From contig ONCG01000001.1 in the NCBI GenBank assembly GCA_900316285.1, forward strand, positions 124,001-188,000: a stretch of DNA of 64,000 bases, written 5' to 3'. The translations under genes were made by a program, and so were the position numbers. The DNA comes from an uncultured Prevotellaceae bacterium. Its GTDB lineage: Bacteria > Bacteroidota > Bacteroidia > Bacteroidales > Bacteroidaceae. Shown piece after piece: positions 16,850 through 63,309 of the stretch; the stretch's first letter is position 1; each line of letters starts with the position of its first letter. Below the pieces are notes generated by a model. The model had not been told where the DNA came from. It saw only the letters and a list, made by a program, of their open reading frames with translations, and searched no databases.

Positions 16850-17062
16850 GGCGACGAGGTCGCAGTTTATAGTTTAAAGTTTATAGTTTCTGGTTTCAAG
16901 TTTCAAGAGGAGCTGAGCTGCAGAGCATGATTAAAGCAGCAGAGTTCGCCGCGCATCACGGGTACTTTTGCCCACAGATTACACAGATTGCACAGATAAA
17001 ACAATAGGGCCGCGGTTCTAGTTTCTAGTTTCAAGAATTCCTAAGTTACGTTCAAAGGTTCG
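16850..17062. repeat. Palindrome/low-complexity repeat array 1
   Basis: Intergenic stretch between the STAS gene and ugd. It has GCGACGAGGTCGC (5-bp stem, 3-base loop), GTTTATAGTTTAAAG runs, an ACAGATTACACAGATTGCACAGAT-like 8-9 base tandem and GTTTCAAG linkers. No gene is seen in it. Confidence 0.7.
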
Positions 17063-18444: not shown

Positions 18445-18668
18445 CAAGGCAGCAGAGTTGCGGTTCAAGAGGTAGAGCAATGCAATGCGCTAAGCGCAGT
18501 CAAGGCGACGAGGTCGCAGTTTCTAGTTTATAGATTAAAGTTCTTTCTCCACTCCGCTACGAAAGCGGCAAAGCCGAGCGTCTAGAGCAGCACAGCTGCG
18601 TTCAAGGTTCTTTCTCCACTCCGCTACGAAAGCGGCATAGCCGAGCGCAAAAGCACTATTTTCTACCC
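18445..18668. repeat. Palindrome repeat array 2, with two copies of repeat family A
   Basis: Intergenic. It has ATGCGCTAAGCGCAG and GCGACGAGGTCGC triloop palindromes, then two family A copies starting at about 18541 and 18607 (TTCTTTCTCCACTCCGCTAC, then GAAAGCGGC and GCCGAGCG). A 3' flank AGAGCAGCACAGCTGCG also forms a stem. Confidence 0.75.
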
Positions 18669-19604: not shown

Positions 19605-19832
19605 AAATCTCACATACGAGGGGCAGGGTAAGGCGACGGGGGCGCGGTCTATGCGCTAAGCGCTGTTTAAAGTGTAAAGCCCTGCGGGCGTGTAAAGAGC
19701 CAAAGGCTCGGGTAAAGCATCGGAGCTGCGGGTAAGGCGACGAGGTCGCTGTTTAAAGTGTAAAGCCCTGCGGGCGTGTAAAGAGCCAGAGGCTCGGGTA
19801 AGGCAACAAAGCAGCGGTTCTAGGGTTATCCT
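19605..19832. repeat. Triloop hairpin array 3
   Basis: A run of short palindromes with 3-base loops: GCGCTAAGCGC, GCCCTGCGGGC (twice), GAGCCAGAGGCTC and GAGCCAAAGGCTC, GCGACGAGGTCGC, joined by GTGTAAAG or GGGTAAAG linkers. The same words in the same order recur at 23637-23850. Its end is fused to the truncated HEPN gene. Confidence 0.8.
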
Positions 19833-20274: not shown

Positions 20275-21290
20275 TGTTTAGCTGCTTGCAGCGGTTTAAA
20301 AGGCACTGCGTGCCGTTCAATACACCTGCGGTGCGGTTCAAAGCGACGAAGTCGCGGTTTCAAGTTTATAGTTTCAAGAGCAGCAAGCTGCGGTTTCTAG
20401 TTTCAGGTTTCTAGTTTCAGGAGCAGCGGAGCTGCGGGTAAAGCGACGGAGTCGCGGTTTCAAGTGGTAGAGTAGTGCTCTGTACCTTAAGGAGCAGTGC
20501 TCTGTATCTTAGGGAGCAGTGTTCCGTAACCATATAGAGCTATGCTCTGTAACCTCTAGAACAGTGCTCTGTAACCTCTAGAACAGTGCTCTGTGACAGC
20601 TAGAGCAATGCTTTTGGGATGCAAGAGCTATGCTTCTGGAGTCTGGAAGCAATGCTTTTGGATGCTGGAAGCAATGCTTCTGGATGCTGGAAGCAATGCT
20701 TCTGGAGTCTGAAAGCAATGCAAAGCGACAAGTCGCAGTTTCTAGTTCTTTCCCCGCTACACTCTGAAAGCGGCATAGCCGAGCGTCTGGTTTCTAGAGC
20801 AGCGGAGCTGCGGGTAAAGTGCTGCGCACGGGTAAGTGGGGTCGGCCTGAAGGCCTCAAAATCTCAAGAAAATCTAGCTGAAAATCTCTCAATTCTTATG
20901 TTTGAATGATTTTTTAATCAATTTTTGAATGATTTTGAGGAGCATCGCGACGACTTTTTTCTTAATGTCACACGGATATCACAGATCTCACAGATAAGGC
21001 GACAGGGTCGCGGTTCTAGTTCTTTCCCCGCTAACGCTAAAGAAAGCGGCATAGCCGAGCGTCTTGTTTCTAGTTTCAAGAGTTGCGTGTAAGTGGGGTC
21101 GGCCTGAAGGCCTCAAAATCTTTAGAAAATCTCCCAATTCTTATGTTTGAATGATTTTTTATTTGATTTTTGAATGATTTTGAGCGAAGCGACCACGAAC
21201 TTATAACTCTAAACTTTCAAACTGACTCTAAACGCTAAACCCGAAAGTAGCAGTTTCTAGTTTCTGGTTTCTAGAGCAGTGGAAAAATTT
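20275..21290. repeat. Large intergenic palindrome/repeat field (array 4)
   Basis: About 1 kb without a believable gene. Contents in order: triloop palindromes (CTGCTTGCAG, GGCACTGCGTGCC, CACCTGCGGTG, GCGACGAAGTCGC, GCAGCGGAGCTGC) with GGTTCAA or GGTTTCAAG linkers; the 22-bp array listed separately; two family A copies near 20742 and 21013; two copies of a 60-70 base segment with GGGGTCGGCCTGAAGGCCTC and AATTCTTATGTTTGAATGAT; and tandem GTTTCTAG/GTTTATAG words. Confidence 0.8.
20476..20721. repeat. 22-bp tandem array, about 11 units
   Basis: Units start TGCTCT or TGCTTC and end AGAGCAG, AGAACAG or GAAGCAA, so each unit junction forms a palindrome such as AGAGCAGTGCTCT or GAAGCAATGCTTC with a 3-base loop. 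The period is 22 bases with one 23-base unit. The sequence drifts along the array from GTAACCTCTAG centres to GGATGCTG centres. Confidence 0.8.
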
Positions 21291-23636: not shown

Positions 23637-23850
23637 AAGGGGGCGACGGCGTCGCGGTCAAGGCGACTTGTCGCAGTTTCAAGTTTCAAGTTTAAAGTTT
23701 AAAGAGCAGCGGAGCTGCGGGTAAAGCGACGGAGTCGCGGGTAAAGCAGCAGAGCTGCAGGTAAGGCGACGGGGTCGCAGTTTAAAGTGTAAAGCCCTGC
23801 GGGCGTGTAAAGAGCCAGAGGCTCGGGCAAAACAATAGAGACAGTGTGAA
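23637..23850. repeat. Triloop hairpin array 5
   Basis: Contains GCGACGGCGTCGC, GCGACTTGTCGC, GCAGCGGAGCTGC, GCGACGGAGTCGC, GCGACGGGGTCGC, GCCCTGCGGGC and GAGCCAGAGGCTC with GGGTAAA and GTGTAAA linkers. The last five or so words repeat the order of array 3. It occupies the whole space between dinD and the VapE-like gene. Confidence 0.8.
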
Positions 23851-24714: not shown

Positions 24715-24825
24715 TCCTAATTGGCGACGGGGTCGCGGGGAAGGCGACGTAGTCGCGGTTTCAAAGTTCAAGGTTCAAAAGCGCTGAAGCGCGTTCAAAA
24801 GGCACTGCGTGCCGTTCAGACTGGA
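24715..24825. repeat. Triloop hairpin array 6
   Basis: GGCGACGGGGTCGC, GCGACGTAGTCGC, GCGCTGAAGCGC and GGCACTGCGTGCC with GGTTTCAAAG and GTTCAAAAG linkers. The right part is translated as the tail of the truncated antirepressor gene. Confidence 0.75.
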
Positions 24826-25129: not shown

Positions 25130-25300
25130 ATATAGAGGAGCCCCAACGCAGCAAAGCTGCGGATAAAGTGCTGCGCACGGGCAAAGAGCCAAGGCTCGGG
25201 TAAGGTGCTTCGCACGGGTAAGTGGGGTCGGCCGCGACCATTAACTTCTAACTCTACACCCTCAAACTGACGCTAAACACTAAGCTCTAAACACTAAACA
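25130..25300. repeat. Repeat array 7
   Basis: Contains GCAGCAAAGCTGC, GTGCTGCGCAC, GAGCCAAGGCTC, a further GTGCT..GCAC word, GGGGTCGGCC as in array 4, and CTAAACACTAAGCTCTAAAC tandem words. No gene. Confidence 0.7.
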
Positions 25301-25942: not shown

Positions 25943-26980
25943 TCAAGGGGTTATGAGAGGGGCAATATGGTTGGTAAGGTCGACAAACTGCTGTATCGAT
26001 AGTTGTTCTGGGCGAAGCGTTAATAAAGTTGAGAGTTCTTTCTCCGCTTTACTATGAAAGCGCCCCTGAGGGTCGAGCGGAGAGTTGAGAGTTGAGAGTT
26101 CTTTCCCTGTTTCGCTCTGAAAGCGCCCAGTTTGGCCGAGCAAAAAGTTGAGATTTGAGAGCTGTCCCGACCTCTCTCCTATAGGGCTGGGAGTATTTAG
26201 GGATTGCTGGAGGGTGGCGATGGCATCTGCACTCAGTAGTTGGCGCAGGGAGACACGAAGCATCTTGCGACGCTGGTTGAAGACGGTCTTCACGATACGA
26301 CGGAAGAGCTGTTCGTCGCAGCCGAGATTGGTCACATCGTTGCGTGTCATGCGGATAACAGCCGATTGCACCTTGGGCGGCGGGTTGAAGACCGAGGGTT
26401 CAACGGTGAAGAGGTACTCAACATCGTACCACGCCTGGATGAGGACAGAGAGGATGCCATAGGTCTTCGAACCCGGCTGGGCAGCCATGCGCAAGGCCAC
26501 CTCACGCTGAATCATGCCCGTACAGCATGGGATGAGGTCGCGGTTGTCGAGCATTTTGAAGAAAATCTGCGATGAGATGTCGTAGGGGTAGTTGCCAGTA
26601 AGGACAAACTGGCGACCTCCAAAAAGTTCGCGAAGATCCATGCGAAGGAAGTCACCGGAAAAGAGAATCCTCTCGCCTGATTCCTCTCCATTAAGAGCCT
26701 CTCCCCCGACCCCTCCCCCATAGGGAGGGGTGGAAACTGATTGTGAAGCGAATTGTGGGAAGTGCTCGCGGAGATAGTCGATGGACTCGCGGTCGATTTC
26801 TACGGCACATACCTGACGAGGCTTCGTGATGAGATACTGCGTAAGTACGCCCATACCCGGGCCGATTTCGAGAACGGGGATGTCGGGACAAGCATCGACG
26901 GTGTCGGCGATGCGGCGGGCTATGGAAAGGTCAGTCAGGAAGTGCTGGCCAAGTTGTTTCTTAGGCTTTACTTGCTTCAT
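25943..26980 (-). CDS. rsmA: 16S rRNA dimethyladenosine transferase with repeat inserts
   Basis: 345 aa from MKQVKPKKQLGQHFLTD; the family is usually about 265-270 aa. SAM-binding motif LEIGPGMGVLT, catalytic NYPYDIS, and the C-terminal LTLRPEQLSIQQFVDLTN. It dimethylates two adjacent adenines near the 3' end of 16S rRNA during 30S maturation. The excess length is explained by two in-frame inserts: residues about 79-104 and about 261-318, both in repeat-like DNA. All catalytic motifs remain. An upstream in-frame start adds 15 residues outside the family. Confidence 0.92.
   Translation of the reverse strand: MKQVKPKKQLGQHFLTDLSIARRIADTVDACPDIPVLEIGPGMGVLTQYLITKPRQVCAVEIDRESIDYLREHFPQFASQSVSTPPYGGGVGGEALNGEESGERILFSGDFLRMDLRELFGGRQFVLTGNYPYDISSQIFFKMLDNRDLIPCCTGMIQREVALRMAAQPGSKTYGILSVLIQAWYDVEYLFTVEPSVFNPPPKVQSAVIRMTRNDVTNLGCDEQLFRRIVKTVFNQRRKMLRVSLRQLLSADAIATLQQSLNTPSPIGERSGQLSNLNFLLGQTGRFQSETGKELSTLNSPLDPQGRFHSKAEKELSTLLTLRPEQLSIQQFVDLTNHIAPLITP
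26027..26200. repeat. In-frame repeat block near the 3' end of rsmA
   Basis: On the plus strand two family A copies (from about 26037 and 26098: GTTCTTTCTCCGCTTTAC and GTTCTTTCCCTGTTTCGC, each followed by GAAAGCGCC and a GAGC end), linked by AGAGTTGAGAGTTGAGAG words, plus GACCTCTCTCCTATAGG. Translated in rsmA as KELSTLNSPLDPQGRFHS and similar. No stop in the rsmA frame. Confidence 0.8.
26669..26746. repeat. In-frame family B repeat inside rsmA
   Basis: Plus strand CCTCTCCCCCGACCCCTCCC followed by CCATAGGGAGGGGTGG, an imperfect palindrome. Adds a glycine-rich STPPYGGGVGGEAL loop between two strands of the methyltransferase fold. Confidence 0.75.
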
Positions 26981-35018: not shown

Positions 35019-37079
35019 ATGATGAACTCTCAAGAGAATGCCCTGGAACAGGGACAGTTAGCAGAAGAGCAAGTTGCCGCCGAGGCCGCAGCTGAAGTAC
35101 AAAACGTGGTAGAAGAAGCCGTAGCACCTGCAGAGGAGCCCGCAGCTGAGGAAGCACCCGCTGAGGAGCCCGCAGCCGAGGAAGCACCCGCAGAGGAGCC
35201 CGCAGCTGAGGAAGCACCCGCTGAGGAGCCTGCAGCCGAGGAAGCACCCGCTGAGGAGCCCGCAGCTGAGGAAGCACCCGCTGAGGAGCCCGTTGCTGAG
35301 GAAACACCCGCTGAGGAGCCCGCAGCTGAGGAAGAGGCTGAAAAGAAAGTCTACACCACGAAGCAGGAAGTGCTCGACCGCGTGAAGGAAATTGCTCACA
35401 GTGAAGAAAACCCGCAAAAAGACGAAGTAGACCTGCTGAAGACGGTATTCTACAAGTTGCACATCGCCGAGCGCGAACAGCAGCTGAAGGAATACATCGA
35501 CGGTGGCGGCGACCCCGATAATTACGTCGTGCGCCCCGACGACCTTGAAGAAATGTTCAAGGCCGAAATGAACGTCATCAAGGAGAAACGCGCCAAGGTA
35601 TTCCAGGCTCAAGAAGCTGAGAAGCAGGAGAACCTGAAGAAGAAACTTGAGATCATCGAGAAGATAAAGGGCATGGCAACCTCGCCCGACGAGGCCAACC
35701 GCTCCTATCAGCAGTTCAAGGAGCTGCAGCAGCAGTGGCGCGACATCAAGGCCGTGCCTGCCGAGAAGGCCAACGAGCTGTGGCGCAACTATCAGCTCTA
35801 CGTTGAGCAGTTCTACGACCTGCTGAAACTCAACAACGAAGCCCGCGAATACGACTTCAAGAAGAACCTGGAACTGAAGACGAAGCTCTGCGAGGCTGCT
35901 GAGAAGCTCGCCGAGGAGACCGACGTCATCAGCGCCTTCCACCAGCTGCAGGAGCTCCACGCCCAGTATCGCGAGATCGGCCCTGTGGCCAAAGACCTGC
36001 GCGAAGAGGTGTGGGCACGCTTCAAGGCTGCCTCCACCATCATCAACAAGCGCCACCAGCAGCACTTCGAGAGCCTACGTGCCCGCGAGGAAGAGAACCT
36101 GCAGAAGAAAACCGAGCTCTGCGAGAAGGTGGAAGCCATTGCCAAGGAGGAGAACAAGGGCGCCAGCGACTGGGAGAAGCACACCAAGCAGATCATCGAG
36201 TTGCAGAACGAATGGAAGACCATCGGCTTTGCCCCGCAGAAGATGAACGTGAAGATCTTCGAGCGCTTCCGTGCCGCCTGCGACGACTTCTTCACCCGCA
36301 AGACAGAGTACTTCCGCGGCATGAAGGAGCGCTTCGCTGAGAACACCGAAAAGAAGCGCGCCCTCGTCGAGAAGGCACGCGCCCTGCAGGACAGCACCGA
36401 GTGGAAGTCCACCTCCGACAAGCTCATCGCTCTGCAGAAAGAGTGGAAGACCATTGGCATGGTACCCAAGAAGATTGGCGACCAGCTCTGGAACGACTTC
36501 CTCGCCGCTTGCAACAAGTTCTTCGAGGCTCGCAATGCCGCCACTGCCGGCACCCGCAACGAAGAGCGCGCAAACCTCGAGGCCAAGCGCGGCATCATTG
36601 CACAGCTGAAGGAGATTGCCGAGAACGTCACCGACGACGCACAGGAGAAGGTGCACGAGCTCATCGACCAGTACCAGCAGGTGGGACACGTGCCCTATCG
36701 CGAGAAGGACAAGTTGTATTCGGAGTACCGTGCCATCCTCGACAAGCTGTATAAGGACCTGAACATCTCAACTGCCCGCCGTCGTCTCGACAGCTTCAAG
36801 AGCAATCTGAAGAATGTGGCACGCCGTGGCGAGGACGCCCTCGACAACGAGCGCACACGTCTGATGCGCCGCTACGAGCAGATGAAGCAGGAGATTCAGA
36901 CCTACGAGAACAACCTCGGATTCCTCAATGCAGCATCGAAGAAGGGTAACTCGCTCATCGACGAGATGAACCGCAAGGTGCAGAAGCTGAAGGACGACCT
37001 GAAGCTCACCTACGACAAGATCAAGGCCATCGACGACGCCAACGCAGCTGCCGAGGCCGAAGAGAATGGCGAGGCATAA
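35019..37079 (+). CDS. DUF349 repeat protein with acidic N-terminal tandem repeats
   Basis: 686 aa. Residues 1-38 are acidic; about 39-108 are seven copies of EEPAAEEAPA; the rest is helical with repeated DUF349 modules recognisable by WKTIGFAPQKMNVKIFERF, WRDIKAVPAEKANELW, WKTIGMVPKKIGDQLWNDF and YREIGPVAKDLREEVWARF. No signal peptide, probably cytoplasmic. The biochemical role of DUF349 is not established. The adjacent ATG at 35022 is an equal start candidate. The gene is single, with terminators on both sides. Confidence 0.88.
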   Translation: MMNSQENALEQGQLAEEQVAAEAAAEVQNVVEEAVAPAEEPAAEEAPAEEPAAEEAPAEEPAAEEAPAEEPAAEEAPAEEPAAEEAPAEEPVAEETPAEEPAAEEEAEKKVYTTKQEVLDRVKEIAHSEENPQKDEVDLLKTVFYKLHIAEREQQLKEYIDGGGDPDNYVVRPDDLEEMFKAEMNVIKEKRAKVFQAQEAEKQENLKKKLEIIEKIKGMATSPDEANRSYQQFKELQQQWRDIKAVPAEKANELWRNYQLYVEQFYDLLKLNNEAREYDFKKNLELKTKLCEAAEKLAEETDVISAFHQLQELHAQYREIGPVAKDLREEVWARFKAASTIINKRHQQHFESLRAREEENLQKKTELCEKVEAIAKEENKGASDWEKHTKQIIELQNEWKTIGFAPQKMNVKIFERFRAACDDFFTRKTEYFRGMKERFAENTEKKRALVEKARALQDSTEWKSTSDKLIALQKEWKTIGMVPKKIGDQLWNDFLAACNKFFEARNAATAGTRNEERANLEAKRGIIAQLKEIAENVTDDAQEKVHELIDQYQQVGHVPYREKDKLYSEYRAILDKLYKDLNISTARRRLDSFKSNLKNVARRGEDALDNERTRLMRRYEQMKQEIQTYENNLGFLNAASKKGNSLIDEMNRKVQKLKDDLKLTYDKIKAIDDANAAAEAEENGEA
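35133..35340 (+). repeat. 30-bp tandem repeat in the DUF349 gene
   Basis: Seven near-identical 30-base units (GAGGAGCCCGCAGCTGAGGA followed by AGCACCCGCT) coding EEPAAEEAPA. Copies differ by few bases, so length variation between strains is likely. Confidence 0.85.
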
Positions 37080-41724: not shown

Positions 41725-41756
41725 CCTTCGTGTATCCATAGCATGAACCTAGTTCA

Positions 41757-41880
41757 GTAAATTAACTTAATTTGATGAGTAAATTAACTTAATTTGCAAT
41801 GTAAATTAACTTAATTTGCGCAGTAAAATAACTTAATTTACTGAATAAAATAAGTTAATTTACTGAACAATTCAAGTTAA
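41757..41880. repeat. 22-bp tandem array of AT-rich palindromes
   Basis: Units GTAAATTAACTTAATTT plus a variable 5-base tail (GATGA, GCAAT, GCGCA, ACTGA), exact 22-base period for five units and a degenerate sixth. The unit core AAATTAACTTAATTT is nearly palindromic. Lies in a 578-base gap between the ygjP-like gene and tRNA-Val; the gap otherwise has only the IS-end remnant and a tRNA promoter. Confidence 0.8.
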
Positions 41881-42025
41881 ATTACAAAACAGACTCAATT
41901 TATTTGCAAAACTGGAGTATTGCTTTGGTCCTTTAATCTCATTGCTTTAGCCACACAAAAGCATTGCGAATGGAAGTCTGGACCACGAATAGACAAGAAC
42001 ATTAAATGGTTACATGATTCTGATA

Positions 42026-59423: not shown

Positions 59424-60713
59424 ATGAATAATTGTCTTGACAACATCAACGTAAAAGGTTTAGAGAAATGGATCTTATCCTTTTGCCTCTTTGCCTTTTT
59501 GCCCTTCCATGCCTCGGCCATCGACGTCAAGGGAAAGAAGAACAGTGCGGTGGTCGATGGTATCAGCTATCAGCTGAATGCCAAGAAGGAAACGGCCATC
59601 GTCGTGAAAAGCCCGGATATTTATTCCGGCGATATCGTCATCCCTGAGAAAATCGAAGTCGACAGCCTGACTTTCTATGTTGAAGAGATTGCTGCGAGTG
59701 CTTTCGAGAAAGCAACGGGCGTGACCTCGATATCTATTCCCAAAGGCATCAGCAAGATTGGTCCACGTGCCTTCTCGGGCTGTTCCAGTCTTACCGCCAT
59801 CGAATTGCCGAAAAGCATCGAGGAACTTCCCACGGAACTCTTCTCTGAGTGTTCAAGCCTCGTCGACGTGACGTTGCCGAAGAGCATTCGCAAGATGAGC
59901 AACGATGTGTTCAAAGGCTGCAAGTCGCTGGCAGAGATCGTCATCCCGGCCAGCATCACCTCGCTGCCTCACGGCACTTTCGAGGAATGCAGCAACCTGA
60001 AGGAGGTAGAACTGCCCACAGGCATGACATCGATTGCCAGCAACGCCTTCGAGAACTGCTCGAGCCTGGAACAGATTGTCATTCCCACGGGCGTGAAGAG
60101 CATCGGCTCGGAAGCCTTCATGGGATGCAGTAGCCTCCGCGAGTTCACGTTCCCCAGCAGCTTGTCGAAAATCAGCAACAGCGTGCTGAAGAACTGCTCG
60201 TCGCTCGAAGAGGTACACTTGCCGAACTCCGTCAGCGAGATTGCCAGCGAGGCATTCCGTTCCTGCTCGTCGCTCGACAGCCTCTATCTGCCCAATTCCG
60301 TGGTGAAGATTGGCTCCGGTGCGTTCCGCGACTGCAGCAACATGCGACACCTGACGCTGCCCAACGGCCTCGTCAGCATCTCGAGCGACTTGTTCCGAGG
60401 TTGCACAAACCTTGAGAACATCGCCTTCCCCAACGGACTGAAGCAGATTGGCAGCTCGGCCTTCGAGGGCTGCACGAGTCTGGCCAAGATCACCCTGCCT
60501 TCATCGCTGAAGGAGATCGACGGCTCGGCCTTCGACAAGTGCAACAATCTCATGACGGTGAACGTGCTGGGTGCCACTCCGCCGAAAATCAGCAGCAACT
60601 CGTTCAGCAAGACTACTTTCCGCGAGGCTGCCGTACACATCCGCAAGGGCACGCTCGGCAACTTCCAGATCAATAAGCAGTGGGCGAAATTCCTCGACCT
60701 CATTGAGAGATAG
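59424..60713 (+). CDS. BspA-like leucine-rich-repeat protein
   Basis: 429 aa. Signal peptide ending FHASA, a short beta region, then about 12 tandem LRR_5 repeats of 23 residues (pattern IGSSAFEGCTSLAKITLPSS), ending with a cap FRITK-like segment AAVHIRKGTLGNFQ. Exported, probably surface or periplasmic; BspA-type repeats in related species bind host proteins or other bacteria. No C-terminal sorting domain is seen. Start has an AAGAAC region. Confidence 0.88.
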   Translation: MNNCLDNINVKGLEKWILSFCLFAFLPFHASAIDVKGKKNSAVVDGISYQLNAKKETAIVVKSPDIYSGDIVIPEKIEVDSLTFYVEEIAASAFEKATGVTSISIPKGISKIGPRAFSGCSSLTAIELPKSIEELPTELFSECSSLVDVTLPKSIRKMSNDVFKGCKSLAEIVIPASITSLPHGTFEECSNLKEVELPTGMTSIASNAFENCSSLEQIVIPTGVKSIGSEAFMGCSSLREFTFPSSLSKISNSVLKNCSSLEEVHLPNSVSEIASEAFRSCSSLDSLYLPNSVVKIGSGAFRDCSNMRHLTLPNGLVSISSDLFRGCTNLENIAFPNGLKQIGSSAFEGCTSLAKITLPSSLKEIDGSAFDKCNNLMTVNVLGATPPKISSNSFSKTTFREAAVHIRKGTLGNFQINKQWAKFLDLIER

Positions 60714-60717
60714 CCTT

Positions 60718-60912
60718 TGACCTTTGAACGCGGCTCTGCCGCATTGAACGGCCGTAGGCCATTGAACCGCTGCGAAGCAGCATTGAACCTTGAGCGAAGC
60801 TCTTGAACCGCGGCTCTGCCGCATTGAACGGCCGTAGGCCTTTGAACCGCTGCGAAGCAGCATTGAACCGCGGCTCTGCCGCTTTGAACCGCGCCGCAGG
60901 CGCCTTGAATTC
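60718..60912. repeat. Triloop hairpin array 8 with TTGAAC linkers
   Basis: Nine modules, each TTGAAC(C) plus a palindrome with a 3-base loop: GCGGCTCTGCCGC (three times), GGCCGTAGGCC (twice), GCTGCGAAGCAGC (twice), GAGCGAAGCTC, GCGCCGCAGGCGC. Module length 18-21 bases. Stem sequences differ completely while linker and loop size stay fixed. Confidence 0.85.
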
Positions 60913-60934: not shown

Positions 60935-61696
60935 ATGACTCATCATATCGTGAAAACCATCGTGCTGATGGCAGCCTTGTGGCTGACGGCAGGTCAGGTG
61001 CAGGCACAAAGTCAGCCTCAGGCCGAAGTAGAGGCCGATCTCGTCAGCAAATACCTCTGGCGTGGCATGGAGAAAGGAGGCATCAGCCTGCAGCCCATGG
61101 CAAAGGTGTCATGGCAGGGTGCCTACGTGAAAATGTTTGGAAGTGCGGGCTTCGACAAGAGCGATGAGGAGGAAATTGATCTCTCGCTGGGCTATGAGTT
61201 CCCGTTTGGCCTGAACATCGGTGTCACCGACTACTGGCAGACGGGCATTGAGCCTAACGACCTATACTTCGCCTACAACAAGGAGACCACGGCGCATCGG
61301 CTGGAGGGAAACATTGGCTACACCTGCCGCTATGGCAGCGTGCAGGCCTACTGCATGTTCTACGGCCACGATACGAAGATCGATGGCAGCCAGGCATACT
61401 CCACTTACATCGAGCTGACTGTTCCCTTCCGTCTCGGTGGACTCGACTGGACGGCGAAGGCGGGCTTCACACCTATGGAGAGTGCCGGCTGGACTGTTCC
61501 CGACTATGCCACTCTCTCCGAATCGCTTCACTACTTCTATGCCGATGGCCCAACCTGTGTCATGGCATCGGTGCGTGCAACGAAGAATCTGAAGTTGCGC
61601 GGAGTCACCCTTCCCATCTTCGCCGAGCTTCACACCAATCCTTACATGCAGACTGCCCACATCATGGGAGGCATAGGGGTCAAAGTAACAAAGTAA
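60935..61696 (+). CDS. Outer-membrane beta-barrel candidate (TorF-like)
   Basis: 253 aa. Signal peptide ending GQVQAQ. The mature part alternates short amphipathic strands (VEADLVSKYLWRGMEKGG, GYTCRYGSVQAYCMF, YIELTVPFRL, IFAELHTNPYM) and ends with a strand GGIGVKVTK, suggesting a barrel of 10-12 strands. The SKYLWRG start is like the TIGR02001/TorF putative porin group. Ligand unknown. Placed between two hairpin arrays. Confidence 0.7.
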   Translation: MTHHIVKTIVLMAALWLTAGQVQAQSQPQAEVEADLVSKYLWRGMEKGGISLQPMAKVSWQGAYVKMFGSAGFDKSDEEEIDLSLGYEFPFGLNIGVTDYWQTGIEPNDLYFAYNKETTAHRLEGNIGYTCRYGSVQAYCMFYGHDTKIDGSQAYSTYIELTVPFRLGGLDWTAKAGFTPMESAGWTVPDYATLSESLHYFYADGPTCVMASVRATKNLKLRGVTLPIFAELHTNPYMQTAHIMGGIGVKVTK

Positions 61697-61704
61697 CAAG
61701 GTAA

Positions 61705-61812
61705 CAAAGTAACGGCCGTAGGCCCACCTTGAACGCGACGCAGTCGCTTTGAACGCGGCTCTGCCGCTTTGAACGCTGCGAAGCAGCTCTTGAACCGCGG
61801 CTCTGCCGCCTA
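61705..61812. repeat. Triloop hairpin array 9
   Basis: TTGAAC-linked modules GCGACGCAGTCGC, GCGGCTCTGCCGC (twice), GCTGCGAAGCAGC, after a short AACAAAGTAACAAGG tandem. The array edge supplies the last codon and stop of the helicase gene on the minus strand. Confidence 0.8.
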
Positions 61813-63309
61813 CGGCCAATTCACGAGAAACACACACTCCGTGGCACGTGTAAAGGCGGTATAGAGCCAATGCACGTAGTCGGCATCCAGCATTTCTGAT
61901 GTCACATATCCCTGATCGATATACACATGTGCCCACTGGCCGCCTTGTGCCTTGTGGCAGGTGACGGCATAGGCAAACTTCACCTGCAAGGCATTATAGT
62001 GTTCGTCTTCCTTCAACTTCTTCAGGCGCTCGCTTTTCGGACGTACGTCGGCATAGTCTTCCATCACCTTATTAAATAATTGCTCGCTCTGCTCACGCGT
62101 CAGGGCAGGAGCCTCCGTGGTCAGCGTGTCGAGCATCACCAGCGACTGCAATTCATAGTCGTCGTAGTCGGGGAACTGCAGCCACACGTTGGCAAAGCGG
62201 AAGCCGTAGAGCTCATGCACATTCCGCACGCGCTGCACAACGGCTTGGTCGCCATTGGCAATGAAGTCCAATACTTCGGAACCAACCGCGCCTCCTCCTA
62301 ATGAAGAGCTGTCAGCAGCGCCACTGCTCCCCTCTCCTTGAAGGGGTTGGGGGAGGCCATACTTATTCTTCACCACCATCAGCCGATCACCGGTGGTGAG
62401 TTCCTCCTCACGACCGAGAATGCTATTGCGAATGCCCATGTTATAGATGTTTGCCCGCTTATTGCTGCGCGTCACCACAATGGTCTCGTCGGTGCCCACA
62501 TGGCTATAACTGGTGTTCAGCGACTCGATGAGTTCATCGCCGGGAACCCTTCGCACATCGGCAAACATCTTGATGCGCAGGGCAATATCGAGCGGTGAGA
62601 GGCGAGGCTCCTGCAATTCTTCCAGTCCATTTGGCTCAGGAAGGAAACTGCGAATCTGCGTAGCATTCCAAAGGATGCCACTCTCTTCCTCTTGGCGCAC
62701 CACCTCGTTGAGCGTGCTCTCAAAAACGCGAAGCCCATAGTTGCGCAGCACCTCTGCCTCTAGGGCCGGGGCTTCCTCCTCGCCCACGGGTGGCAACTGT
62801 GCAGGATCGCCGATGAGAATCATCCGGCAATCGCCCGGACCACCATAGACGAACTGCACGAGGTCGTCGAGCAGACTGCTTCCCAACAGACTGCCATCGC
62901 CAAACAGCGACGAGCTGCCAGTGCTGATCATCGAGGCCTCATCGACGAAGAACAACGCATTGCGCAAACTGTTAAAGCCCAGGCTGAATCCTCCTTCCAG
63001 ACTTTTCTGCCGATAGATGCGGCGGTGAATGGTGGAAGCCTGCTCACCGCTGTTCAGCGAGAACACCTTCGCCGCACGACCCGTGGGAGCCAGCAGCACC
63101 AGCTTCTGCCCGAGTCGTTTCAGCGTGCGCACCATCGCACTGGCCAGCGTGGTCTTACCCGTACCTGCCGACCCACGCAGAATCATCACCGGCTGTCCTT
63201 CGCGACAAGCTAGAAACCGCGTGAAGCAATCCACCGCCAGGTGTTGCTCGCGTGTCGGCGGGAATCCCACCTCTTGTTCTACCCGAAATATAAATTCATC
63301 TATCGTCAT
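61810..63309 (-). CDS. RecD/Pif1-like AAA helicase
   Basis: 499 aa superfamily 1B helicase. Walker A LRGSAGTGKTTLASAM (about 45-60), motif Ia LLAPTGRAAKVF, Walker B FFVDEASMIS, GDPAQLPPVGEEE, VVTRSNKRANIYN, and the C-terminal YAVTCHKAQGGQWAHVYID and YTAFTRATECVFLV. Related to the conserved Bacteroidota exonuclease-V-alpha-like helicase next to DUF3822. DNA repair role inferred. Residues about 318-344 are a G/S/A-rich insert derived from a family B repeat. Confidence 0.9.
   Translation of the reverse strand: MTIDEFIFRVEQEVGFPPTREQHLAVDCFTRFLACREGQPVMILRGSAGTGKTTLASAMVRTLKRLGQKLVLLAPTGRAAKVFSLNSGEQASTIHRRIYRQKSLEGGFSLGFNSLRNALFFVDEASMISTGSSSLFGDGSLLGSSLLDDLVQFVYGGPGDCRMILIGDPAQLPPVGEEEAPALEAEVLRNYGLRVFESTLNEVVRQEEESGILWNATQIRSFLPEPNGLEELQEPRLSPLDIALRIKMFADVRRVPGDELIESLNTSYSHVGTDETIVVTRSNKRANIYNMGIRNSILGREEELTTGDRLMVVKNKYGLPQPLQGEGSSGAADSSSLGGGAVGSEVLDFIANGDQAVVQRVRNVHELYGFRFANVWLQFPDYDDYELQSLVMLDTLTTEAPALTREQSEQLFNKVMEDYADVRPKSERLKKLKEDEHYNALQVKFAYAVTCHKAQGGQWAHVYIDQGYVTSEMLDADYVHWLYTAFTRATECVFLVNWP
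62278..62358. repeat. In-frame family B repeat in the helicase gene
   Basis: CTCCCCTCTCCTTGAAGGGG followed by TTGGGGGAGG; adds PLQGEGSSGAADSSSLGGGA-type residues between a beta strand (DRLMVVKNKYGL) and SEVLDFIANGD. Confidence 0.6.

Follow-up and report, generated by a model that had tools for sequence, protein, structure and literature searches.

When small palindromes are strung together by linkers that hardly change, and the palindromes themselves differ from one unit to the next, a basic question arises: what keeps the two arms of each palindrome alike if their letters are not kept? The array that raises this question is located on the minus strand at 60730-60903 of the window (here, the whole 64,000-nucleotide stretch that was analysed, C22:124001-188000 in the 3.89-Mb host genome). 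In keeping with the original prediction of a hairpin array at 60718..60912, this intergenic tract, which is bordered by ORF 59424-60713 (+), resembling by eye the BspA-type leucine-rich proteins, and ORF 60935-61696 (+), contains nine hairpins, every one with a loop of 3 nt and with TTGAAC linkers between them; the successive stems are GCGGC, GGCC, GCTGC, GAGC, GCGGC, GGCC, GCTGC, GCGGC and GCGCC. On the strand from which the linkers are read, a module consists of a linker followed by G-N(2-3)-C, three loop bases and G-N(2-3)-C. Among 127 forward linkers, GTTCAA is found 67 times, GTGTAA 31, GGGTAA 9, GTTTAA 8, GTTGAG 8 and GTTAAG 4 times. The linkers had been described as constant, which is true inasmuch as all of them form one family with a single reading direction, but not to the letter: there are several variants, and TTGAAC is merely GTTCAA reversed.

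Modules of the same kind are found at ten more places in the window. On the minus strand, a five-module array (61714..61809; GGCC, GCGAC, GCGGC, GCTGC, GCGGC) begins where the minus-strand ORF 61810-63309 ends, at its stop codon; the other places are on the plus strand. At 16851..16907, a lone GCGAC module is followed by hairpin-free heptad repeats of the AGTTTAT / AGTTTCA type, and at 18486..18643 sparse hairpins with the stems TGCGC, GCGAC and GCAGC are intermixed with another repeat element. Arrays are located at 19653..19795 (GCGC, GCCC, GAGCC, a GCATC/GCTGC stem with one mismatch, GCGAC, GCCC, GAGCC; linkers GTGTAAA/GGGTAAA), 20302..20455 (GGCAC, CACC, GCGAC, GCAGC, GCGAC), 23643..23824 (GCGAC, GCAGC, GCGAC, GCAGC, GCGAC, GCCC, GAGCC) and 24724..24813 (GCGAC, GCGAC, GGCAC), with short ones at 20771..20829 (CGGC, GCAGC, GTGC) and 25147..25215 (CGCAGC, GTGC, GTGC) and another lone GCGAC module at 20999..21011. 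Each of the eight other places that had been named does contain hairpins of this type, sparsely so near 16850 (one) and 18445 (five, two of which belong to another repeat).

Other repeats occur in the same surroundings. At window 20474-20721 and L041:1885-1984, GC hairpin arrays are adjoined by tandem arrays in which units of ~22 bp contain hairpins richer in AT (AGAGCANTGCTCT, GAAGCAATGCTTC); perhaps, these represent a further palindrome family that has a linker of its own. The 22-bp tandem repeat at window 41756-41885, with AATTAACTTAATT palindromes, is an AT-rich version of the hairpin-plus-linker plan, and a 30-bp tandem repeat (7.1 copies; window 35123-35334) is contained within ORF 35019-37079. 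A dispersed element, roughly TTCTTTCTCCACTNCGCTACGAAAGCGGCAAAGCCGAGCGC, is seen in or beside arrays (window 18550-18650; L028 ~14190; L033 ~660), and window 26027-26161 may hold a related form.

Arm pairing, distribution and loop class

Could the pairing of the arms be due to chance? The host sample of 369.5 kb comprises the window and 17 further stretches; since 15 of these 17 were picked for a GCGAC hairpin hit, module density in the sample is not a genome-wide value. When linkers alone were called, with no palindrome required, and all gaps of 11-17 nt between neighbouring linkers were taken, the 141 host gaps were found to contain 74 perfect 5-bp and 43 perfect 4-bp triloop hairpins and 10 hairpins with one mismatch, leaving 14 with none; shuffling of each gap yields an expectation of 4.8 perfect triloop hairpins instead of 117. 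The claim that both arms always change together is, then, nearly but not strictly correct, there being one mismatch in 10 of 127 hairpin-like gaps. The host 5-bp arms pair to 98.3%, as compared to 63.3% (maximum of 200 swaps, 67.2%) upon swapping the 3' arms between modules. Duplication of a few modules does not account for the arrays: 31 distinct stems are found across the 24 arrays of the host sample. Orientation is uniform within arrays, with one mixed case among the 24, and 21 of the 24 arrays of at least three modules are extragenic, though the sample is 82% coding.

In the window itself, such hairpins are indeed more frequent than in shuffled sequence: 5-bp stems with 3-nt loops number 124 versus 63.5 (maximum 79) in 20 dinucleotide shuffles. 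The count of 5-bp stems with 5-nt loops is above the shuffles, too (106 versus 68.4, maximum 83), and, for 4-bp stems, the excess is larger with 5-nt loops (384 versus 260.1) than with 3-nt loops (345 versus 254.2), part of the 5-nt excess being nested counting because each 5-bp triloop hairpin also scores as a 4-bp/5-nt one. The genome-wide pattern search that had been proposed for this locus, performed with a linker-hairpin-linker pattern (GTTCAAN{0,2}GNNNCNNNGNNNCN{0,2}GTTCAA), yields 103 matches in the whole host genome and 0 with the reversed pattern as control. The single stem GCGACNNNGTCGC is a poor probe because, with 43 hits versus 11 in the control in the host, the counts in relatives are near the control (the top one of 60, G022, has 22 versus 19).

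How widely are the arrays distributed? In a set with one genome per species, the pattern is matched in 23 of the 299 genomes of the genus; as judged by eye, the matches are palindromic in 12 of these, the host included, and 11 have one chance-like match each. Next to the host, the most numerous matches are in G196 (81), followed by G224 (37), G106 (26), G228 (18), G118 (11), G284 (6), G158 and G197 (4 each), G249 and G071 (3 each) and G248 (2). By their depositors' names, G196 and G284 are Prevotella sp. RGIG7592 and RGIG1522, and G106 and G228 are uncultured Prevotellaceae RUG431 and RUG12005, the handles having been tied to records through identical match coordinates and counts. In a sample of 395 genomes of the phylum, 20 have a pattern match, host included, and in the other 19 no 4-5 bp triloop palindrome was seen by eye. 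A scan of named genomes produced at least 114 loci; among the matches listed, five have two or more linker-flanked hairpins, namely L100, L124, L131 and L140 in Prevotella/Prevotellaceae records (L124 and L140 share one contig) and L157. Since the named-genome loci are known as at least 114 only, the taxonomic spread is a lower bound. L157 (JAQVTF010000045.1) belongs to a metagenome-assembled genome labelled by its depositor as Desulfobacteraceae (G323), with 62 matches and 0 in the control, and contains seven hairpins that directly follow the stop codon of a putative aconitase ORF (judged by eye). The stems in that genome are essentially two, GCGCC and GCCGC, and the stem repertoire differs between array-bearing genomes. 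The same contig contains a pure 7-bp tandem repeat, (GACCTCT)n, at L157:7684-7766. A pattern scan of IMG/VR gave at least 120 stretches, with no case of two or more linker-flanked hairpins among the 120 listed loci; the 195-bp array, queried by blastn under low-complexity filtering, has 0 matches among 50,697 records of phages and 72,556 of plasmids; and Rfam, at gathering score, detects two tRNAs only in the window, with no family covering the arrays.

In most of the other array-bearing genomes for which arms were swapped, real pairing also exceeds the best swap: 97.6% versus 73.9% in G196, 100 versus 89.1 in G224, 93.8 versus 80.0 in G228, 95.6 versus 88.9 in G106 and 99.3 versus 93.6 in G323. 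Because swaps can equal the real pairing in G118 and G284, these two genomes are uninformative on this point; in G118, 16 of the 32 linker gaps are without a hairpin.

The loops, unlike the stems, keep largely to one class. Of the 117 host loops, 82 read TNC in the linker direction, that is, GNA on the opposite strand, and 6 read GNA, together 75%. Counted on either strand, GNA is found in 88 of 117 loops in the host, 35 of 42 in G196 and 20 of 28 in the Desulfobacteraceae genome, as compared to 12.5% under equal use. The share of GNA-type loops is 86% in G284, 83% in G196, 71% in G323, 67% in G228 and 50% in G224; they are a minority in G106 (8/17, 47%) and G118 (3/12, 25%). Most loops thus belong to the C(GNA)G kind that is stable in DNA. 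According to passages of PMC4686876, GNA loops with two or more G-C pairs form DNA mini-hairpins that are extraordinarily stable and resist nucleases and that, at a 3' end, shield from 3' exonucleases. The DNA folding energies of ViennaRNA do not separate the 64 triloops and give GNA no bonus, so that the stability of these hairpins rests on the literature. The loop class suggests that single-stranded DNA may be the state in which the fold matters. Taken together, the arm swaps, the shuffles, the common loop class and the finding of such arrays in a second phylum indicate that it is a hairpin that is preserved, in line with the original prediction of selection on, or generation by, a hairpin.

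Turnover, insertion into genes and growth

Comparison with the closest relative found, G196 (one contig, 75 kb aligned at 86% identity), indicates a rapid turnover of the arrays. Of 14 host clusters with at least two modules each, 7 are without an aligned flank, 6 have no called module in G196 and 1 has other modules there, so that 6 of 7 judgeable arrays lack called modules in this relative; in G224, 3 of the 14 are judgeable and 0 have modules. A 14-module array at C22:188522-188882 corresponds to spacers of 35 bp in G196 and 23 bp in G224. The array of the 60718 spacer is absent from G224 and G071, and its counterpart in G196 contains, by eye, heptads (GTTGAGA, GTAAAGA) and one GCCC-type hairpin. 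For the array at 61714, G196 retains both end modules, and the interior modules differ (by eye). Since the G196 counterparts hold other repeats or modules, these spacers are sites at which one repeat is replaced by another.

Several arrays are found inside conserved genes, in frame. The rsmD gene (L033:891-1694; PF03602 scores above its cut-off, and TIGR00095, with 104.8 bits, falls short of the 117.5 required) contains a ten-module array. The resulting insert, between residues 113 and 202, is absent from 10 of 11 relatives, in which the proteins have 176-181 aa; the matches in the 11 relatives start at residue 1, break off at 108-137, resume at 169-203 and run to 266-268. RsmD of G196 has a different, shorter insert there, with one linker-less hairpin. 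The host insert stops a few residues ahead of the DPPY motif. In rsgA (L035:798-1979, minus strand; PF03193), there are two inserts, at residues ~52-97 and ~266-309, which are both skipped by the matches of G118, G016, G106 and G003; in G224, G228, G196 and G071, one or both sites are occupied by another palindromic repeat with a SPTPNPSPVGRG-like peptide. Different palindromes thus use the same permissive RsgA sites. The palindrome encoding that peptide (L386-L389) is longer, of the CCCTCCCCGAAGGGGAGGG type, often with GAA or GTA loops, and similar ones are seen by eye at window 30348 and 46431. In topB (L041:6792-9032), the matches in 9 of the 11 relatives leave out residues ~418-450, and those in G224 and G196 align through, G196 with one stop. 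An agmatine deiminase gene of the host (L028:14927-16057, minus strand) also has two modules in frame, and clusters are found inside predicted ORFs in G196 (4) and G323 (1). Annotators should be warned that the extra RsmD, RsgA and TopB segments are repeat-derived and not domains.

Within arrays, the same stem recurs at lag 3 in 13 of 44 cases versus 5.3 expected (within-array permutation, P 0.0025), and not at lag 1. At L035:9288-9472, the unit GACC-GAGCC-GACGC occurs repeatedly, in one copy as GGCC-GAGCC-GACGC, with both arms changed and the GTGTAA linkers intact. Directly adjacent modules hardly ever share a stem in the host: 1 of 114 pairs, by a module caller with no linker requirement per module, versus 10.6 expected, with 0 of 3000 permutations as low. 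The sole exception within 14 nt in the host sample is the first pair of GCGAC modules at window 24724-24756. With gaps up to 22 nt allowed, there are 2 same-stem neighbours in 141; with a linker-requiring caller and each ordered pair taken once per array, 0 in 97 versus 9.4 expected. A weak tendency in the same direction is seen in G323 (5/20 versus 7.3 expected at 14 nt; 8/27 versus 11.6 at 22 nt), and there is no avoidance at 22 nt in G224 (5/15 versus 3.8 expected) or G106 (3/7 versus 3.1), so the avoidance is strong only in the host. Since identical neighbours make up direct repeats of ~20 bp together with a longer inverted repeat, the simple reading is that they are lost through slippage or through processing of the hairpin; assembly collapse of two 20-bp units seems unlikely. 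Cross-pairing was considered as a cause and rejected, inverse-stem neighbours in the host being as common as expected (2 versus 2.05, a comparison of low power).

The arrays also show polarity with respect to coding sequence. In the linker direction, coding sequence is no more than 20 bp away from the 5' edge in 35 of 58 flanks and from the 3' edge in 9 of 55 (P=2e-6 over four genomes), as judged from our own, uncalibrated ORF calls, the two flanks of one array not being independent. The respective numbers are 17/29 and 4/28 in the host and 5/7 and 0/7 in G224; in G323 (5/6 and 1/6, P 0.08) and G196 (8/16 and 4/14, P 0.28) the difference is not significant singly. Where the 5' edge faces a stop codon in sense orientation, it often touches this codon (host median, 1 bp). 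One-way extension until coding sequence is met would produce such an edge effect without any orientation preference.

Possible origins of the arrays

What process could give rise to such arrays? The explanation that we put forward, with about even confidence, is that they are a mosaic of very small selfish palindromic DNA, the arms of which are kept alike by template switching or hairpin swapping. The module, a linker of ~7 bases (GTTCAAN or a related one) joined to a hairpin of 4-5 bp with a mostly C(GNA)G-type triloop, would fold when DNA becomes single-stranded at replication forks or in repair. Template switching across the hairpin could then keep the arms complementary; alternatively, whole hairpins might be exchanged between arrays via the shared linkers, and such cassette exchange would yield the same paired arm changes. 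By either route, stems would drift and the pairing would stay nearly perfect. Identical neighbours would be lost as unstable direct or inverted repeats, leaving heterogeneous arrays, and the nuclease-resistant hairpin might help fragments to persist and to be copied into new sites. Template switching is described in part of PMC8794818 as creating and maintaining perfect hairpins, and passages of PMC6649704 discuss it for the coding palindromes of hairworm mitochondria.

Alternatively, a Y1/RAYT-type HUH transposase could recognise the hairpin in single-stranded form and mobilise the modules in trans, as non-autonomous REP-like elements, an explanation that we consider unlikely. The hairpin units, the extragenic bias, the intragenic copies as in REPs and the in-frame ones as in RPEs (from passages of PMC3733652) are compatible with this possibility; moreover, the host has three PF01797 genes, one of which, in L049 (182 aa), adjoins the array-rich region C15:110-130 kb, and PF01797 is found in 8 of 12 array-bearing versus 5 of 18 other genomes. 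However, PF01797 is absent from 4 of the 12 bearers, including G118 (99% complete, 11 pattern matches), neither GTAG nor CGTC nor a complement is found within 6 nt of any of the 117 perfect host hairpins, and REP sequences are characterised in parts of PMC3116915 as highly conserved, which these stems are not. This agrees with the original claim that these arrays are not a standard REP/BIME element. A gene co-occurring with the arrays had been called for, and neither candidate tracks them cleanly: the Y1 transposase was rejected as the sole mobiliser (PF01797 in 13 of 30 genomes), and so was a reverse transcriptase (PF00078), which is found in 21 of 31 genomes, 10 of 13 bearing and 11 of 18 non-bearing (with G323, bearing, and G141, non-bearing, below the cut-off), and is absent from the bearer G228 (96% complete). 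Separately, palindromes of the GTAGGGACG... type, with the look of ordinary GTAG REPs, occur in the host genome at L049 (G000:C15:131182-134466), the locus of the 182-aa Y1/RAYT-like gene, and also at L028 ~6750 and L032 ~7040.

It is improbable, in our view, that the arrays are a pure by-product of replication, with heptamer slippage producing the arrays and foldback template switching making hairpins de novo, with no mobile element involved. The linker length of ~7 nt, the heptads beside or instead of hairpins (window 16864-16903 and the G196 spacer) and the sporadic distribution, with no clean tie to reverse transcriptase or Y1 genes, would fit, and heptameric repeats are, in passages of PMC4692102, over-represented and little studied in bacteria. 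Yet the GTTCAA linker and the loop class are common to two phyla and there are many dispersed sites in one genome, both of which are hard to obtain by independent local slippage, and palindromic matches are found in just 12 of 299 genus members.

A role as functional structured RNA, that is, 3'-UTR hairpins that guard mRNA ends or bind a protein, with selected compensatory substitutions, is very doubtful. The stems are compensated, and sense stop-side flanks lie within 20 bp in 13 of 17 cases in the host and in 3 of 3 in the Desulfobacteraceae genome, as such a role would have it. Against it, sense and antisense flanks number 31 and 26 in the host and 47 and 66 over four genomes (5 and 7 in G323), with an antisense lean in G196 (10 versus 20) and G224 (1 versus 13); an RNA role appears unlikely because the gene orientation is mixed, with no sense preference. 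Orthologous spacers with different arrays or none, copies inside coding sequence, linkers without a terminator T run and the lack of an Rfam family over the arrays also argue against it. Generation or selfish spread agrees better than an RNA function with the mixed orientation and the in-frame insertions. Finally, a dedicated hairpin-writing process that adds 20-bp modules with fresh complementary stems toward the 5' coding boundary and avoids the neighbour's stem, in Prevotella as well as in Desulfobacteraceae, is hardly probable; if real, it would mean that the host has a mechanism generating shape-only DNA free of fixed sequence.

Relation to known repeat systems

In searches of the open-licence literature, no description of such arrays in Prevotella was found. 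The arrays are not a CRISPR, as originally stated: a CRISPR has a constant repeat and unique, non-palindromic spacers, whereas here the variable part is itself palindromic in 117 of 141 gaps and is found again in other arrays. Intrinsic terminators are sense GC hairpins with a T run; here, GTTCAA-type linkers follow the hairpins, and the orientation is mixed. The nearest precedent may be the cyanobacterial SDRs, reportedly described by Elhai in 2008 as very small mobile hairpin repeats, linked to heptamer tandem repeats and of fixed sequence per family; compared with these, the palindrome here varies and the linker is fixed.

The heptamer tandem repeats GGGAATC (PMC4692102) and TAACTGA (PMC4679880; in several groups including Bacteroidetes) are presented in passages of these papers as 7-bp units, mostly intergenic and patchy, as here, but no hairpin module between the units is described in those passages. 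The RHE of sponge mitochondria, according to parts of PMC2800124, are similar small hairpins that invade spacers and are GC-rich in some sponges; their stems are conserved and their loops vary, whereas here the loop class is steadier and the stems vary.

The REP/BIME/REPIN elements, in the passages of PMC3733652 and PMC3116915 that describe them, are, like these, short, many-copy palindromes, mostly extragenic with some intragenic copies, in species-specific families, and compensatory changes are noted for the REPIN hairpin in part of the REPIN paper; unlike in REPs, the linkers here are constant, the stems variable, the tag lacking and the link to Y1 not clean. The Rickettsia palindromic elements (RPEs), compared by their description in parts of PMC3733652 and PMC6649704, are likewise in-frame palindromes in conserved protein genes, but they have a terminal CGTC, and their arms cease to be identical with time; in the present arrays, the arms stay paired, there is no CGTC, and modules of ~20 bp form tandem mosaics. 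The carriers are some gut Prevotella and one unrelated Desulfobacteraceae genome, with fast-changing chains that keep their shape and vary their letters. For REPs, RPEs and the hairpin elements of mitochondria, it has long been asked how such tiny palindromes spread and remain palindromic. Given that stems vary within a genome, that a relative of 86% identity is already without called modules at most of the judgeable arrays and that copies lie in frame in conserved genes, compensation, insertion and loss could be counted here from few strains. In behaviour, these arrays are closest to REPs and RPEs with the constant and variable parts reversed: the linker and the loop class are kept, and the stem is free.
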